Positions 38,533-46,960 of a DNA stretch of 64,000 nucleotides are shown here, in pieces. The DNA is from Spirochaetae bacterium HGW-Spirochaetae-3 (GTDB taxonomy: Bacteria > Spirochaetota > Spirochaetia > Treponematales > UBA12059): NCBI GenBank assembly GCA_002839315.1, contig PGXV01000002.1:1-64000 (forward strand), given 5' to 3'. The number at the start of each line of letters is the position of its first letter. The stretch's first letter is position 1. The notes beneath the pieces are model-generated. The model saw only the letters and a program-made list of their open reading frames with translations. It made no database searches and was not told the origin of the DNA. The translations under genes and the position numbers were made by a program.

Positions 38533-39483
38533 ATGAACGAATGGATTTTCGGCATAGACGGAGGCGGTACGAGCTCGCGCATACGGGTCGAGGAACTGAC
38601 GGACGGGCGAAAGCCGCTCTACGAAGCCCGCGGAGGCAGCACGAATCCAAATTGCATTGAGGCGAAGGTCGTCGCCGACGTCCTGCGCGGGCTCGTCGAA
38701 GGCGCCCTCGCGAGCGGGCTGGAGCCGGCCGGCTGCAAGGCCGGGTTCATAGGATCGGCCGGCGTCGACAGGCCCGAGGACCGCGTGACGATGGCCGCCG
38801 CGCTGCGTACCGCTTTCAAGGAAGCCGGTCGCCGGACCGACGGCCCGCTTCCGGCGTTAGCCGCGGGCAACGACGCGGAGCCGGCGCTCGTCGGGGCCGT
38901 CGGCGACGTCGAGGGCTTCCTGCTGATAGCGGGTACGGGCTCCATAGCGCTGGGTCGTACGCGCTCGGGAGAAAGCGTACGGTCGGGCGGCTGGGGACAT
39001 TTCCTCGGAGACGAGGGCTCGGCGTTCTGGATCGCCTTCGAGGCGATCAAGCGGGGCATACGCTCCAGGGAGCTCAGGGACAAGCCGAGCGCCCTGCTGG
39101 AGGCGGCGATAGAACACTTCGGATTGCCGGACGAGCTGGCCTTCTTCCCGTTCACCTACCAGAACTTCAGCAAGTCGGGGATAGCGTCGTTCGCGCCGCG
39201 GGTCGCGGCCCTGGCCGAAGGCGGCGACGAGCTGGCGCTTTCCATCATGGACTCGGCCGCGACGGAACTCGCCGCTCTCGCCGCGTCGGTCTATAAGAGG
39301 CTGGCGCCGCGCGTGACGAACAGGCGCCTGGCGCTTTACGGCGGACTCCTGGAACGCAACCGGCCGCTCAACTCGGCGGTCTCGTCGAGAATAGCGGCCG
39401 CCTTCCCGGAGATAGTCGTAATCGAGCCGGCGGGCGACGCCCAGGCAGGCGCGTGCAGGTTGGCGCGCGAGCTCCTGAACTAA
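38533..39483 (+). CDS. N-acetylglucosamine kinase-like (BadF/BadG/BcrA/BcrD ATPase family)
   Basis: 316-aa sugar kinase-like ATPase. Phosphate-1 motif is FGIDGGGTSSR near residue 6, STNPN follows, phosphate-2 is LIAGTGSIALG near 135, then SGGWGHFLGDEGSAFWI, as in bacterial GlcNAc kinases. The C-terminal LYGGLLERNRPL matches the adenosine motif region. In this setting it probably makes GlcNAc-6-phosphate from the GlcNAc freed by NagZ, feeding NagA. It has its own promoter and ribosome site. Its stop overlaps the convergent cyclase gene by 4 nt. Confidence 0.9.
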   Translation: MNEWIFGIDGGGTSSRIRVEELTDGRKPLYEARGGSTNPNCIEAKVVADVLRGLVEGALASGLEPAGCKAGFIGSAGVDRPEDRVTMAAALRTAFKEAGRRTDGPLPALAAGNDAEPALVGAVGDVEGFLLIAGTGSIALGRTRSGESVRSGGWGHFLGDEGSAFWIAFEAIKRGIRSRELRDKPSALLEAAIEHFGLPDELAFFPFTYQNFSKSGIASFAPRVAALAEGGDELALSIMDSAATELAALAASVYKRLAPRVTNRRLALYGGLLERNRPLNSAVSSRIAAAFPEIVVIEPAGDAQAGACRLARELLN

Positions 39484-42400
39484 GCCTCGGCTCCGAGCGC
39501 CGCTATCTCCGCCGCCATCTCCGGCTCCAGCGTCGTAGCGTCGAGGCCGGCCGCGAGCCTCCGGCATCCCGCGAGGTCCCCGGCGTCCCGTAGCGATAGC
39601 GCCTCCTCGAGGAGAGCCTTGGCGGCCGGATACGGTAACGGTCGCCCCGGGCCGTCCCGATAGACGACATACGAGCTCTGTACCGAGCCTTTGCCCTTTA
39701 CCTGGCGCCGAGGCCGCCTGAGCAGCTGGAATTTCGAACCGAGGCCGAGCGCGGTGACTGCAGAGACGGTCAAACCCATCGGCGCCGTCATCGCCTCGAG
39801 CCTGAACGCGGTATTGACCGTGTCGCCGAAGACATCGAAAATATATTTCTTGATACCGACGACGCCGCCTACTATGGGGCCGGAATCGACGCCTATCTTG
39901 ATGCGCAGGCCGCGGGACTGGCCGGTCGTCCTCGTCTCGGCGAAGCGGAGCATGTCGATGGCGGCCGAGACCATGCGGGCTCCGTGGTCGACGGACGCCG
40001 CGCCGAGGCCCGAGCAGGCCAGGTACCCGTCGCCTATCGTCTTGATGCGCTCGCAATTCCAGCGGTCCATGATATCGTCGAATCCGGTGAACAGGGCGTT
40101 AAGCTCCTCGATGATAGCGTCCGGCGGCATGGAGGCGGACCATTCGGTAAAGCCGACGATGTCGGCGAACAGTACGGTCGCGTCGGGATAGACCCGGGGG
40201 CGAGCCCTTCCGGCGCTCTTCAGCTCGTCGGTTACCGATTGCGGCAGGATATTCCTGAGGAGACCGTCGCTCTTCTCCTTCTCGTCGGCCAATTCGCTCG
40301 TCCGTTCGGAAACGAGGGCGTCAAGCTCGTTCGCTCGCCGCCTGAGGCGTATGACGCGCAGGTACGCGACGAGGAATCCGGCGCCGACGAGCGAGGCCGC
40401 GAGGGCGACGAAGAACGGTAGGGTCTGATAGAAGAACGGTTCCTTCTCGAGGGTCGTCGAGGCGCCCTCTACGTTGACGACGCCGTCGTTATTGGTCGCG
40501 CGCACCCTGAACGTATAGGTACCCGGCGGCAGGTTCGTGTAACCGATCTGGCGATCGGTGCCGGCGGGTATCCAGTCGGCGTCGAATCCCTCGAGCATGT
40601 ACTGGAACCGGACGCGCTGGGGAACGGTATAGCTGAGCGCCGTATAGCCTAAGGTCACGCGCTTGGACCCGGCGGGTACGACGATCCGGCCGTCTCTCGG
40701 CGCGACGACGGTCCCGTCGACCTCGACGCGCTCGATCATGACGGGCGGAGGCAATGTATTGACCGCGGCGGATTGAGGATTAAACGTGGACAGCCCCTTG
40801 AGGGTCGGCAGGTAGACGACTCCCCCGTCGTTGACGTAGGCCCAGGCGTTGGCGGATAGCTGCCCGGCCAGTCCGTCGAGCCTGTCGTAGACGCGCGCGC
40901 CCGCGGCCCTGGCGCCGACCGACGCGGCCTTCGCCAGGGAGTCCGCGTCGACGACGATTACCTTACGGCCCGTCACGATCCAGAGTCGGCCCGCCGCGTC
41001 CTCCAGGACCTCGAATACGCTCTCGCCCGATAGGCCCGCGGCCGCGTCGGCGGACGTAAAGGCGTCATTGTCGTACAGCGACAGCCCTTCCGAGGTACAG
41101 AACCAGAGTCGGCCCGCGGCATCGTCGACGATGCGGAATACCACGTCGCCGGCCAGGCCGTCCGCCTTCGTATATATCTTCGTCACGCGGGGGAGGGACC
41201 CGGGCGCCACGACGGCGACGCCGCCGCCGTCGGTACCCAGCCATATGGAGCCTCGGGAATCTTCCTCGGCGCACAGGATGAACAGGTTCGGCAGACCCGA
41301 GCCTTCCCCGAGCGCGGTCGCCTTGCCGGCGGATACGACGGCCGGGCCGGCGGTCGTGCCTATCCACAGCGCCCCGGACGTCGAGCGGTACGAGAAGCGC
41401 ACGCGGTTATTAGGCAGTCCGTCAGCCTTGGTCAGCGTCTCGACGGAGCCGTCGGCCCTCAGGACGACGAGACCCCGCTCTGAATACGTCGCGAACCAGA
41501 GGCTACCGTCGGGCTCGGCCCGTACCTGGCGAACGCGCACGCCTCGCAGACTCTCGACGAAGCCGTCGAGCGAGGCCCTGCGCTCGTCGTCGACGTAGTA
41601 GGTATCGGCGTCCGACGGGAAAAGGGACACGCCGTCATCGGTCGCTACCCACAGGCTACCTTGCCCGTCCTCGACGGCGGCGTTGACGGCGTCGCTGACG
41701 AGGCCGTCCGCCTTGTCCGTATTGACGAATTTACCCGGGCTGAATTTGACGAGGCCGCCGCGCTCGGTACCTACCCACAGGTTGCCCTCGCGGTCGCGGC
41801 AGAGCGCCGAGACGACGTTGCTCGGCAGGCCGTCGGCCTCGGAATAGCGCTCTAACGAAGACCCGCGGCGCGATACGACTCCGCGGTCGGTCGCTATCCA
41901 CATCGTCCCGGAGGAATCCGCGCTGAACGAGTTGACGCTAGCCCCGCGGAGCTCGTCGAGGCTTATCGTCTCGGTTATCTCGTTGTTCCGGACCAGCACG
42001 ATACGCCCCGAGCTACTACCCAGCCACAGCCCGCCCGAGCCGTCAAGGAACGCGGACGAGAACGAATACGCCTCGAGCCCCTGGCCGGGAAGGAACGTCT
42101 CTACGCCCCTGGAGCCTATCAGCGACAGCCCTGGCAGGTTGGAGCCGACGAGGACGGTGCCATCCGGTAGCGGTAGCACGAAATTAGCTATACCCAGGGT
42201 CCTCGATCCTTCGTTGACGGCGGAAACGACGCCATCCCCGGCTATCTTGGAAACGCCGTCAGCGGTTCCGACCCAGACGGCGCCGCCTGCGTCGAAGGCG
42301 ATGGAACGTACGGAAAGATCGGTCAAGCCTTCCTCGAGGCCGAAGCGGACGAAGGCGCCGTCGCGATACCGGTAGAGCCCGGCGGAATTGGATCCGATCC

Positions 42401-42725
42401 AGAGCGCCCCGTCCGGCCCGACGGCCAATACGCGCGCCGAGCGTCCGACGAAGCCGCCGAGCTCGGGCGTCATCGTCGTGAACGTCTCTCCGTCGAACCG
42501 GACCAGGCCCTCGTACGTTCCCAGCCAGATATAACCGTCGCGGTCCTGGGCCACGTCCAGGACCGTATTGGACGGCAATCCCTCGCGGTCGGACCAGACG
42601 GTCATGATCGTCTGCGAGAGTCCTCCGTCGCCCGGGGAGGCGAACGGCGCCGCCGCCGCAATAAGGAAAGCGACCAAGAACACTACCCGAATGAAGTCTC
42701 CGCTACGATTCGATCCATTAAACAT
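39480..42725 (-). CDS. propeller-sensor class III adenylate cyclase
   Basis: 1081-aa membrane signalling protein. Order: signal/anchor (about 10-30); two-component-regulator beta-propeller repeats (about 40-640) with recurring GLPSN, GxLWIGT and GGLVKF-type blades; a Y_Y_Y domain ending in PPGTYTFRVRATNNDG; one membrane helix (about 770-790); a coiled linker; and a class III cyclase domain (about 845-1015). Metal Asp855 and Asp899, adenine-selecting Lys895 and Asp964, and transition-state Asn971 and Arg975 are all present with the mammalian-type 7 and 4 residue spacing, so it should make cAMP. A short TPR-like tail follows. The ligand sensed in the periplasm is unknown. Confidence 0.93.
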   Translation of the reverse strand: MFNGSNRSGDFIRVVFLVAFLIAAAAPFASPGDGGLSQTIMTVWSDREGLPSNTVLDVAQDRDGYIWLGTYEGLVRFDGETFTTMTPELGGFVGRSARVLAVGPDGALWIGSNSAGLYRYRDGAFVRFGLEEGLTDLSVRSIAFDAGGAVWVGTADGVSKIAGDGVVSAVNEGSRTLGIANFVLPLPDGTVLVGSNLPGLSLIGSRGVETFLPGQGLEAYSFSSAFLDGSGGLWLGSSSGRIVLVRNNEITETISLDELRGASVNSFSADSSGTMWIATDRGVVSRRGSSLERYSEADGLPSNVVSALCRDREGNLWVGTERGGLVKFSPGKFVNTDKADGLVSDAVNAAVEDGQGSLWVATDDGVSLFPSDADTYYVDDERRASLDGFVESLRGVRVRQVRAEPDGSLWFATYSERGLVVLRADGSVETLTKADGLPNNRVRFSYRSTSGALWIGTTAGPAVVSAGKATALGEGSGLPNLFILCAEEDSRGSIWLGTDGGGVAVVAPGSLPRVTKIYTKADGLAGDVVFRIVDDAAGRLWFCTSEGLSLYDNDAFTSADAAAGLSGESVFEVLEDAAGRLWIVTGRKVIVVDADSLAKAASVGARAAGARVYDRLDGLAGQLSANAWAYVNDGGVVYLPTLKGLSTFNPQSAAVNTLPPPVMIERVEVDGTVVAPRDGRIVVPAGSKRVTLGYTALSYTVPQRVRFQYMLEGFDADWIPAGTDRQIGYTNLPPGTYTFRVRATNNDGVVNVEGASTTLEKEPFFYQTLPFFVALAASLVGAGFLVAYLRVIRLRRRANELDALVSERTSELADEKEKSDGLLRNILPQSVTDELKSAGRARPRVYPDATVLFADIVGFTEWSASMPPDAIIEELNALFTGFDDIMDRWNCERIKTIGDGYLACSGLGAASVDHGARMVSAAIDMLRFAETRTTGQSRGLRIKIGVDSGPIVGGVVGIKKYIFDVFGDTVNTAFRLEAMTAPMGLTVSAVTALGLGSKFQLLRRPRRQVKGKGSVQSSYVVYRDGPGRPLPYPAAKALLEEALSLRDAGDLAGCRRLAAGLDATTLEPEMAAEIAALGAEA

Positions 42726-43296: not shown

Positions 43297-44391
43297 TCAG
43301 AAGAATGACCAGAGTAGCCCGGAGGCTAGCGCGGCGATTACGGCCGATCCGAGGTACACGGCGAACACTCGCGGCTTGGCGATACCGAACACCGCCGACA
43401 TCGCGGGTAGCGTCGTCGTGGCGCCGCCGATAAGGAATGAAAGAGCGGCGCCCTCGCTCATACCCTTACCGAGCAGGCCGCCGATCATTCCGAGCGCCTG
43501 GGCGTTCGTCGTATAGAACGGTATACCGACGAGAACCGCGATCGGCACCGCGAAGATATTTTCGGCGCCGAGCGCGGCCCTTATCCACGCTTCGGGTACA
43601 TAGAACTTGATCGCCGCCTCGAGCGCGAACGCGACGGCCATGAACTTACCGACGAAGAGCACGCTCGACAGGAGCTCCTCGCCGAATCGCCTGGCAAGTC
43701 GGCCGGCCCGTCCCCGCTCGTCCGATATCCCCGCGGCTGGAGCCGGCAGGCGGGGCTTCAAGCCCGACGTCGCCGTAGCCGAGCCGCCAGGTACGGCCGA
43801 GAACAGGTTCGCGGACGTCGCCCCGGCGGATCCCGAGCAGGCGCAACGCGGAGCGATCGGGGCGGGCGCCATCGCCGGAACGGCGGAGGAACAGGCGCAC
43901 CCGGGCTGTTCGCGCCCGCCGGATTCGCGTAGCACGCCGCCCGAGAAATAGCCGCGACGATCCAGGGCTATCGCGAGGAGGCCGCCTCCGAGGCTCATCA
44001 GCGTCGCGGCGGCGAAACGGGCTATCGCGAGGGGCCAGCCTATCGTCGAAACGGACAGGAAGAATATCTCGGGATCCATCGAGGGCGAGGCCAGCCAGAA
44101 AGCCATGACCGGCGCGATCGGCACGCCGGCCGACAAGAGCGAGAATATTACCGGTATGACCGAACAGGAGCACAGCGGGCTAAAGGCGCCGAACAGGGTC
44201 GCCGCCACGACGGCGGCGACCGGTTTCATCGACATGACGCGCTTGAGCCTGCCCGAGAGCGGACTCATCCTGACAGCCGCGGCCAAGGGTATGCTGACGG
44301 CCCATAGCGGCCAGGTGCGCGCGAAGGCGCCGCCGATAAAACCGAGTATACGTACGCCCTCGCGGGCGACTATCGATATAAGTTCTGTCAT
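43297..44391 (-). CDS. DUF318-type permease with Cys-rich linker (ArsP or metal-efflux-like)
   Basis: 364-aa membrane protein with two blocks of about four helices each, separated by a 90-residue hydrophilic linker. The first block has FGAFSPLCSCSVIPVIFSLL, the CSCS-x2-P motif of the DUF318/ArsP permeases; the second has PFYTTNAQALGMIGGLL and FLIGGATTTLPAMSAVF. The linker carries CACSS and CACSGSAG, suggesting metal or metalloid binding. Homologues export trivalent organoarsenicals (ArsP) or Cu/Zn (SO_0444 type). The start overlaps the marR stop by one base (TGATG). Confidence 0.88.
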   Translation of the reverse strand: MTELISIVAREGVRILGFIGGAFARTWPLWAVSIPLAAAVRMSPLSGRLKRVMSMKPVAAVVAATLFGAFSPLCSCSVIPVIFSLLSAGVPIAPVMAFWLASPSMDPEIFFLSVSTIGWPLAIARFAAATLMSLGGGLLAIALDRRGYFSGGVLRESGGREQPGCACSSAVPAMAPAPIAPRCACSGSAGATSANLFSAVPGGSATATSGLKPRLPAPAAGISDERGRAGRLARRFGEELLSSVLFVGKFMAVAFALEAAIKFYVPEAWIRAALGAENIFAVPIAVLVGIPFYTTNAQALGMIGGLLGKGMSEGAALSFLIGGATTTLPAMSAVFGIAKPRVFAVYLGSAVIAALASGLLWSFF

Positions 44392-44837
44392 CAGGGGTTT
44401 CCGCAGCGGCAGGTCGCCGCCATAGAGGAAAGCGCTACGGAGAGCAACTCGAGCGCCTTACGGACGCCGGCTCGCTCGGACTCTGGTATCGACGCCATCA
44501 CGCTCGCCGCCTGAGAATTAAGCGCCTCTTCGAGCGCTTCGTAGCGCGCCTTTCCGGCCTCGGTGAACGCGACGTCGTACATGCGCGCGTCGGCGCAGCA
44601 CTTCCGCCGCTCTACGAGGCCGTCGCGCTCCAGCGAGTCTATGGCTCGCGACACCCAGCTCTTCTCGAGGCCTAACCTTGCGCTCAATTCCGCCTGAGGC
44701 ACGGTTCCCTCATCCCCGATGGCGCAGAGAACCTGGCATTGGGTCGTCGTGATACCGCAGCATCTGGCCTGTAGCCGCTGAGCCTGCGCGTATACGCGCG
44801 TAACGATCCTCAATAGCTCGTCTTCTGTCTTTTCCAT
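44391..44837 (-). CDS. MarR-family regulator, Cys-rich
   Basis: 148-aa winged-helix repressor. The DNA-binding part is VPQAELSARLGLEKSWVSRA, then LVERRKCCADARMYDVAFT. It contains eight Cys (C26, C27, C34, C38, C80, C81, C143, C145), with a final CRC, unusual for MarR and suited to sensing a metal, metalloid or thiol-reactive compound. It heads the permease/GNAT operon and probably represses it. The palindrome TGTTAACA lies immediately downstream of the -10. GGAG precedes the ATG. Confidence 0.92.
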   Translation of the reverse strand: MEKTEDELLRIVTRVYAQAQRLQARCCGITTTQCQVLCAIGDEGTVPQAELSARLGLEKSWVSRAIDSLERDGLVERRKCCADARMYDVAFTEAGKARYEALEEALNSQAASVMASIPESERAGVRKALELLSVALSSMAATCRCGNP

Positions 44838-44859: not shown

Positions 44860-44896
44860 TGTTAACAACTATATGCACATTCATAGCCGTTGTCAA
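44860..44896 (-). promoter_or_regulatory. marR operon promoter and candidate operator
   Basis: Minus-strand consensus TTGACA (44896-44891), 17-nt spacer, TATAGT (44873-44868), directly followed by the palindrome TGTTAACA (44867-44860). CTATTG-type words flank both sides. The operator would cover the transcription start. Confidence 0.6.
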
Positions 44897-45109: not shown

Positions 45110-46855
45110 CTACTCGCCTTTTTTGCCGAAGAGATCCTTTATCGCGCCGAAGATGCCCTTGGGCGACGACGGAGCGGGGCCCTTATCGGCGGGAGCGGGC
45201 CTCGGCTCGGGGCGCTTCCGTTCCTGCGCGGACCGAGGGTGCGTCGGGGACGAAGCCTTTCCGCGAGAGGGCTTTCCGCCCGCGGGCCTGGGGCTCCCGG
45301 CCTTCGGCGCCTTCGCGGGCTCGCCGGTCGCGCCATATCGTTCGCGATACAGGCGAAGCCGCTCCTCCATGCTGACGGAATACGGATCAGAAAGCCGCTG
45401 AGGATTACCTCCCCGCGATCCGCGGGACGGCGCGCGGGACGTCTCGCCGCCGCGCTTACCGCGGTCGCCCGCGGTCGCCTCGGCGGGTCGGCCCTGACCA
45501 GGCTTCGTAGCCGATCCGCGCCCCTTCTTCCCGCGCTTCTTCCCGGGCTTCGCCGAGTCGGATGACGATTTATCCGGCGGCGACGCGACCGAGACGGGTC
45601 TTCCGCCGGTGATCGCGGCGATATCGGCCTGAATCGCGCGAACGTTTCGGCCGTCGTACTGGCCTCCCCTGTCGCTCCGATCACGGCGGTCGTCGGGGCG
45701 CCGGCGTTCCGAGCCTTTATCGGGCGCCCGTCCGGCCGGCGGCCGCACGGAAGGAACCGGTCCGGCGGGAGTCATCATCGACTCGTCGGCCGGAACGGGC
45801 GCCAGGCGAGAACCGAGCATACGCTCTATGGCCGGTATACCGAATGAATAGCGCTCGCAGGCGAAATTATAGACGCCGGCGCCGTTCCTGGCAGCGTCCA
45901 GGAACTCTAGCCGAGCTACGTACGGTTCGCCTTCGAGCGGTAGGTCCCAGTTGACGAGCGTCGCGGCCCACGATCCGGGCAGCCCGGACGCACCCTCGTC
46001 GGTGAGCACGAGGACATCGTAGTCGCCCGCGATCACCGAATCGAGTACCGCGCGCTTCCTCGGCAGGTTGCCGAGTACGTATTCGGTGCTTATGCCGCGC
46101 GATCGTAGCATCTTGGCGGTCGCCTCCGCGGTATCTCGAAGGTCGCAGAACACGGCGACGGGTTTGGCGGCGCCCGACGAGAGGAGCCCGAGCAACAACC
46201 GGGGCTTGTCTTCCGCGCGGACGGAATAGGTCGAGCTCGGAGCGTTCCTCGCGCGCTCGCCCTCGGCTTCAAGGTCAAGCTCGACGACGGGGCCGCCCAG
46301 GTCGCGGGCAATCGCGAGATGCGCGGGTCCGGGTTCAGCGGAGAAGGCCACGCAACGACGCTTGCCGGAGGCCGTACCGAACGCGTTGCGGAGCATAGCG
46401 GCGTTCGCGAAGTCGGCCATGCCGTCCAGATCGCTCAGGGCGAGTAGCCCGTACGAGCGCGTATCGAGGGTCTTCGCCGCCGCCCGGGAAGCGATAGCGT
46501 CCAGGGAGCCGACGGCCACGATGGCGTCCTCAACGGCGCCGTCACGGCCGATCGTAGAGCACGAGAGTCCGAGATCGGCGCCGATCGAGTCGAACGCGGC
46601 CTTCAGCCCCGCGACGTCGCGATCGCCCGGAGCCACGACGAGGGCCTTGAGGCCGGGCTCCGCCAGGATCCTGGCGGCGACCGCGGCCATCAGCACCGCG
46701 TCGCGTCCGGCGCCTAGCCGCACGCTGGCGACGGCGCTTCCTTCGGCCAGCCTGGCCGCGAGGGTCTTCGCGGCGACGGGAGAACCCTTACCCGCGAGAG
46801 CCGCGGTTATCCGTTTATCGAATTCAATAACGTCATTATTCATCTGCGATCCCAT
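45110..46855 (-). CDS. degenerate DEAD-box (RhlB-like) protein with basic disordered tail
   Basis: About 581 aa. Residues 10-200 follow the RecA-1 fold of DEAD-box helicases, but the P-loop is replaced by SVRLGAGRDAV and the DEAD box by ALSDLDGMAD. Residues 210-345 match RecA-2 of RhlB-like proteins (VAVFCDLRDTAEATAKMLRS; DYDVLVLTDEGASGL; FACERYSFGIPAIERMLGS), yet motif VI HRxGRxxR reads ARLEFLDAARNG. ATP hydrolysis is thus unlikely. The final 230 residues are Arg/Lys/Gly/Pro/Ser-rich and disordered, suited to RNA or ribonucleoprotein binding. Start ATG 46855 follows a TAAAAT by 7 nt; ATG 46843 is an alternative. Confidence 0.85.
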   Translation of the reverse strand: MGSQMNNDVIEFDKRITAALAGKGSPVAAKTLAARLAEGSAVASVRLGAGRDAVLMAAVAARILAEPGLKALVVAPGDRDVAGLKAAFDSIGADLGLSCSTIGRDGAVEDAIVAVGSLDAIASRAAAKTLDTRSYGLLALSDLDGMADFANAAMLRNAFGTASGKRRCVAFSAEPGPAHLAIARDLGGPVVELDLEAEGERARNAPSSTYSVRAEDKPRLLLGLLSSGAAKPVAVFCDLRDTAEATAKMLRSRGISTEYVLGNLPRKRAVLDSVIAGDYDVLVLTDEGASGLPGSWAATLVNWDLPLEGEPYVARLEFLDAARNGAGVYNFACERYSFGIPAIERMLGSRLAPVPADESMMTPAGPVPSVRPPAGRAPDKGSERRRPDDRRDRSDRGGQYDGRNVRAIQADIAAITGGRPVSVASPPDKSSSDSAKPGKKRGKKGRGSATKPGQGRPAEATAGDRGKRGGETSRAPSRGSRGGNPQRLSDPYSVSMEERLRLYRERYGATGEPAKAPKAGSPRPAGGKPSRGKASSPTHPRSAQERKRPEPRPAPADKGPAPSSPKGIFGAIKDLFGKKGE

Positions 46856-46868: not shown

Positions 46869-46960
46869 TCCAGCGGCGTCCGGCCTCGACCGAACGCCGG
46901 CGTCGTCAGGATTGCACTATACAATGCACAGAACGCGTTGTGAAGGCATGGGCGGGAGCC

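Follow-up and report, generated by a model that had tools for sequence, protein, structure and literature searches.

Pseudokinases and pseudophosphatases are well known. Proposed pseudohelicases numbered only two in the count given in a 2022 paper on Utp25 (PMC9539457), and a search of the open-licence literature for bacterial pseudohelicases of the DEAD-box type brought up no paper. Utp25 (Def) is a pseudohelicase of the SSU processome of yeast and human, with vestigial motifs, an inferred origin by duplication and a proposed role as scaffold or helicase cofactor (PMC9539457). In bacteria, PriA of D. radiodurans has lost motifs I and II, with a Walker lysine-to-arginine change that is conserved across a group (PMC4504706). 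CshA of B. subtilis and S. aureus is an active ATPase, and a passage of PMC6178137, citing Lehnik-Habrink 2010, states that its C-terminal end suffices for the interaction with RNase Y in B. subtilis.

The spirochaete protein described here resembles Utp25 in its predicted DEAD-box-derived fold of two RecA-like lobes, its vestigial motifs, its duplication origin, its disordered extension and a proposed scaffold or cofactor role. However, Utp25 acts in eukaryotic ribosome assembly and its disordered region is N-terminal, whereas the spirochaete family is bacterial, has a tail at the C-terminus that it shares with a living paralogue, and is of separate origin by tree position. The likeness to D. 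radiodurans PriA lies in the loss of motifs I and II, including the same lysine-to-arginine change, in a bacterial protein and across a group; PriA differs in being a DNA replication-restart helicase, not of the DEAD-box type, that was changed in place with no active paralogue alongside. CshA is the best sequence match in the PDB (5ivl, 3.2e-10) and is among the top fold matches of the predicted model, although RNase Y is only a candidate partner for the spirochaete proteins. The nearest relative is in the same genome: an intact paralogue (L003, contig C17) from the parent clade, of the same length and tail charge and with two of the same tail helices, which differs in having all catalytic motifs intact, a predicted closed conformation and no helix h1.

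The gene is located in the window, that is, the whole 64,000-nucleotide stretch of contig PGXV01000002.1 that was analysed, in a genome of 3.88 Mb; the named orthologues of the protein are all from Spirochaetota MAGs. The open reading frame is unbroken, giving 604 residues from an upstream TTG, 581 from the ATG at 46855 or 577 from the ATG at 46843. Sigma-70-like promoter consensus matches number four in the region versus 0.5 expected, and the candidate upstream of the gene (Table 1) suggests that it may have a promoter of its own.

As judged by profile scores, the homology of the 581-residue protein to DEAD-box helicases is beyond chance. The best NCBIfam match is CsdA (5.9e-20), followed by RhlB (2.5e-15), with DbpA and CshA also near; in Pfam, Helicase_C is barely at the cut-off and there is no DEAD match. 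A defence-system helicase was considered and rejected, as the PADLOC matches were marginal and covered only the generic Helicase_C part of the protein (BrxHI being the best, at 5.6e-4). The earlier note had recognised the RecA-like halves of an RhlB-type helicase with motif I, the DEAD box and motif VI all replaced. The RhlB profile match and a tree position within an RhlB-like clade bear this out, and so does alignment with the intact paralogue, in which TGTGKT, DEAD, SAT and HRIGRTAR stand opposite LGAGRD, SDLD, SAE and ARLEFLDA of the dead protein. Motifs Q, Ia, GG and Ib are likewise gone, so that no working Q, I, Ia, Ib, II, III or VI is left.

The losses are common to the family. Over 35–37 orthologues, the Walker lysine is never found and is mostly arginine (Table 1); the Q motif glutamine is absent from all 35, the DEAD glutamate and the SAT threonine are each present in 1/35, and the second arginine of motif VI in 0/36. 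The catalytic motif residues are invariant across 28 intact paralogues. Degeneration in the dead protein extends to the RNA-contact elements Ia (PTREL), GG and Ib (TPGR) and to the arginines of QxxR and motif V. What the family keeps are the motif V threonine (36/37) and aspartate (37/37), the first arginine of motif VI (37/37) and, in 18–20 of 35 members, the motif I glycines. On this alignment the protein has lost the catalytic and the core RNA-contact motifs of an active DEAD-box RNA helicase, and it retains the two-lobe fold in prediction.

Table 1. Features of the pseudohelicase gene and its product (positions in the window; residues of the 581-residue protein)
Feature	Position	Strand	Remarks
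Whole pseudohelicase gene	45110..46855	(-)	581 codons and stop; alternative ATG at 46843
Sigma-70-like promoter candidate, TTCACA-17-TATAGT	46916..46944	(-)	consensus match only
RecA-like lobe 1, residues 8-200	46256..46834	(-)	catalytically dead; mean pairwise column identity ~0.31
RecA-like lobe 2, residues 201-360	45776..46255	(-)	better conserved (0.44); holds the invariant core residues of the family
Former motif I / Walker A, GAGRD, residues 48-52	46700..46714	(-)	K to R; K in 0/35, R in 28/35
Former motif II / DEAD box, SDLD, residues 141-144	46424..46435	(-)	Glu position is E in 1/35
Former motif III, SAE (for SAT), residues 172-174	46334..46342	(-)	from alignment
Motif V remnant, TDEGASGL, residues 285-292	45980..46003	(-)	T 36/37, D 37/37; Arg degenerate
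Former motif VI, ARLEFLDA, residues 314-321	45893..45916	(-)	second Arg lost in all; first Arg (R315) invariant
Basic, mostly disordered tail, residues 366-581	45113..45760	(-)	net charge +27; length and charge as in the intact paralogue
Tail helix h1, residues 402-418, RAIQADIAAITGG	45602..45652	(-)	in most dead members; most intact paralogues are without it
Tail helix h2, residues 489-511, DPYSVSMEERLRLYRERYG	45323..45391	(-)	most conserved segment of the dead family; within the genome, confined to this protein and the intact paralogue
C-terminal amphipathic helix h3, residues 564-581, GIFGAIKDLFGKK	45113..45166	(-)	shared with the intact paralogue alone

Structure prediction supports a retained fold. 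In the AlphaFold2 model both lobes (residues 10–360) have pLDDT mostly above 90, and the model matches DEAD-box structures with Z scores of 22–27. It lies 8.4 A from RNA-bound DbpA and is nearest to the half-open Dbp5-Gle1 (5.2 A) and DDX6-CNOT1 (6.1 A) structures, whereas a control model of the intact paralogue, obtained by the same procedure, is closed and superimposes on DbpA bound to RNA and ADP-BeF3 with 2.4 A over 370 residues. This difference fits a core that no longer closes, although the way in which AlphaFold2 orients the lobes counts as weak evidence.

The tail had been described in the earlier note as a 230-residue basic extension attached to the helicase. Its basic character is confirmed; its length is 216 residues, and "attached" is wrong, since the intact paralogue bears a tail of matching length (215 residues) and the same net charge (+27), from which we conclude that it was inherited from the parent helicase. 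AlphaFold2 places helices at residues 402–416, 496–511 and 568–576, corresponding to three conserved segments with the consensus IxADIAAITGG (h1), DPYxxSMEERMxLYREKYG (h2) and GLxGxIKxLFGKK (h3). Profiles of h2 and h3 run against the whole genome recovered two proteins only, the dead one and its intact paralogue (h2, 2.9e-14 and 2.8e-12; h3, 2.8e-7 and 4.4e-6, with the next match at E 0.76). Over 59 relatives the h2 profile gave one or two matches per genome in 47, mapping to helicase loci, and a comparison of h2 with solved structures gave no convincing match. Helix h3 is amphipathic (moment 0.63, shuffle p 0.007), and therefore docking to a membrane or to a protein would both be possible. 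The h1 profile found no convincing match among the other proteins of the genome. Two RhlE-like helicases of the same group, L001 (G000, contig C18) and L124 (G010), end in DVRSVIDEITG and DVRSAIDAITG, which look h1-like by eye; kinship with these ends is not claimed, as the h1 profile did not recover them. One dead orthologue, L015 (G016), stops about 30 residues past h2, without h3, and has one in-frame TGA within its match, so that a frameshift may lie behind the short end, or the C-terminal helix may really have been lost.

The distribution of conservation differs between the two paralogues. In the dead family, h2 has a mean pairwise column identity of 0.60 and h1 one of 0.48, with the two lobes lower still (Table 1); in the intact paralogues the values are 0.46 and 0.25 for h2 and h1 and 0.70 and 0.73 for lobes 2 and 1. 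By this measure, constraint in the dead family has shifted from the motor core to the tail docking helices.

In a maximum-likelihood tree all dead sequences form one clade (100/100, in all bootstrap trees) on a stem of 1.38 changes per column. The clade sits beside the intact RhlB-like helicases of two families, within a spirochaete RhlB-like clade, and a second tree agrees. The trees show that the dead protein arose when an ancestor common to two spirochaete families, here f1 and f4, duplicated its RhlB/CshA-like helicase. In a survey of 294 genomes of the order, in which the dead family was split from intact relatives by score and counted per family by hand, it was found in 17/23 f1 genomes and 15/30 f4 genomes (one f4 case, G092, by score and coverage only), and in 0 of about 240 genomes of f2, f3 and f5. 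A sparser, phylum-wide survey of 296 genomes showed it only in f1 among the matches listed, the f4 carriers not being among them. Six of the 23 f1 genomes have no dead copy (G005, G009, G010, G011, G013 and G018), several of them more than 90% complete; since several genomes of both families are without it, the gene is dispensable in some lineages and is occasionally lost.

Where it is present, it is maintained. The order NDH-2-type dehydrogenase, dead gene, alpha-glucan phosphorylase is kept in both families (f4 members and f1 genus g8), with the flanking assignments read from their sequences. Pairwise core dN/dS is 0.12–0.36 for the dead copy versus 0.05–0.13 for the intact copy; the dead copy is constrained, though about two to three times less than the intact one. 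These ratios indicate that it is kept under purifying selection, with degenerate motifs common to every orthologue inspected. The earlier suggestion of a pseudo-helicase thus stands, on the shared motif loss, the monophyletic clade and the selection; intact motifs in close orthologues, which would have pointed to recent decay in this genome, were looked for in the 35–37 orthologues and not found. We regard the pseudohelicase status (catalytic residues lost, the loss being fixed in orthologues, in a gene that is retained and whose fold is predicted to be kept) as strongly supported.

The intact and the dead copy do not always occur together. Seven f4 genomes hold an orthologue of the active helicase (63–73% identity), and none was found in eight f4 genomes of one branch, where the best matches were at most 38% identical and belonged to other DEAD-box subfamilies. 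These eight genomes (G033, G038, G047, G053, G062, G089, G092 and G104), all keeping the dead copy, are 76–95% complete; incompleteness could account for one such case, but hardly for eight. In this branch h2 and h3 are kept and the motif I glycines are gone, and the branch stem is long, at 0.96 changes per column. Two of its members, L057 (G033) and L029 (G053), have less basic tails, +3 and +10 versus about +20 to +40 in most others, and one role of the tail may therefore have weakened there.

What could such a protein do? The alignments show that the catalytic, ATP-binding and core RNA-contact motifs were lost and that the docking tail of the parent was kept, together with the predicted two-lobe fold. 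The reading we favour, with a probability of roughly one half, is that it is a bacterial DEAD-box pseudohelicase working as an adaptor or scaffold through the docking tail of its parent. Helices h2 and h3 would bind the partner, or the partner and membrane, that the tail of the active helicase binds; lobe 2 would provide a protein-binding surface, and the lobes would no longer close on ATP and RNA. The likeliest setting would be RNA turnover or ribosome assembly. RNase Y scored over the curated cut-off in five of the seven genomes tested (of the remaining two, it was fragmented in one and absent in one), and RNase E/G was not found in these seven; for this reason, and given the precedent of the CshA tail in B. 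subtilis, a membrane-anchored RNase Y assembly is the first candidate partner. That the dead protein works in an RNase Y degradosome is a candidate reading only. In the parent-less branch the dead copy may have taken over the docking role after loss of the active parent. The fuller proposal, that a dead paralogue with the docking helices of an active helicase replaced that helicase in one branch, and that selection has kept docking or scaffolding and not unwinding, is put forward more tentatively, at somewhat less than even odds. Counted against a scaffold is the gene neighbourhood, which is metabolic and without an RNA link.

The main rival, which we consider rather unlikely, is that the dead copy is a competitive or heterodimeric regulator, taking the docking site of the active paralogue or pairing with the active helicase and so limiting or tuning its activity. 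Both paralogues bear the same two docking helices, which occur nowhere else in the genome. According to a passage of PMC6178137, chimeras in B. subtilis with a foreign helicase core on the tail of another helicase interfere with growth, and it is argued there that competition with the paralogue would follow if the core changed and the tail did not. The dead family resembles this arrangement in nature, which is why competition ranks first among the alternatives; by analogy with those chimeras, one would expect competition from a dead core joined to the same tail. However, competition cannot be the sole function in the eight genomes that have the dead copy and no detected orthologue of the active parent, and the protein is thus not merely a regulator of its parent.

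The earlier note had itself proposed an RNA-binding scaffold; in the form weighed here, the helicase core would hold RNA without ATP. The scaffold part is plausible and has gained support from the highly conserved tail helices shared with the parent. For the core, the basic tail and the retained threonine and aspartate of motif V and first arginine of motif VI are in favour, but the degenerate Ia, GG, Ib, QxxR arginine and motif V arginine and the acidic charge of the core (-7 for this protein, and between about -5 and -18 for relatives whose N-terminus is complete) make this reading improbable. Because the core contacts are lost and the core is acidic, any RNA binding should more likely lie in the tail.

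Less probable still is a cryptic nucleotide-binding protein, sensing ATP or another nucleotide through non-standard residues. The predicted fold of lobe 1 and the motif I glycines of about half the members would allow it; on the other hand, the motif I lysine and threonine, the Q glutamine and the acidic residues of motif II are lost with no consistent replacement, the parent-less branch is also without the motif I glycines, and a Walker K-to-R change abolishes ATPase activity in E. coli PriA (PMC4504706). A decaying pseudogene or assembly artefact, to which only the accelerated evolution on the family stem might point, is ruled out: frames are open in about 30 separate genomes, the motif loss is shared, dN/dS is clearly below 1, synteny is kept and the tail motifs are highly conserved.

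If our preferred reading of a docking pseudohelicase is correct, these spirochaetes separate the catalytic from the docking role of a DEAD-box helicase in nature: the family has dozens of bacterial members, an active paralogue beside most of them and one dead-only branch, and the roles of a helicase besides unwinding become directly testable. Two related families of environmental spirochaetes keep this dead helicase intact, and an annotation of Helicase_C or RhlB in them can label a protein that is unable to be a helicase.

As possible operon partners, neither the own-genome neighbours nor the conserved flanking genes gave an RNA link. In this genome the neighbours are a MarR regulator, an ArsP permease, a VanY peptidase and an HDOD protein. 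The ArsP-type permease and the adjoining MarR-family regulator (window 43297–44837, minus strand) follow a near-consensus promoter, TTGACA-17-TATAGT, at 44896–44868, and are perhaps a metal or metalloid export pair. At 39480–42725 on the same strand, the window codes for a 1081-residue protein with two-component regulator propeller repeats, a Y_Y_Y domain and an adenylate/guanylate cyclase domain by Pfam.
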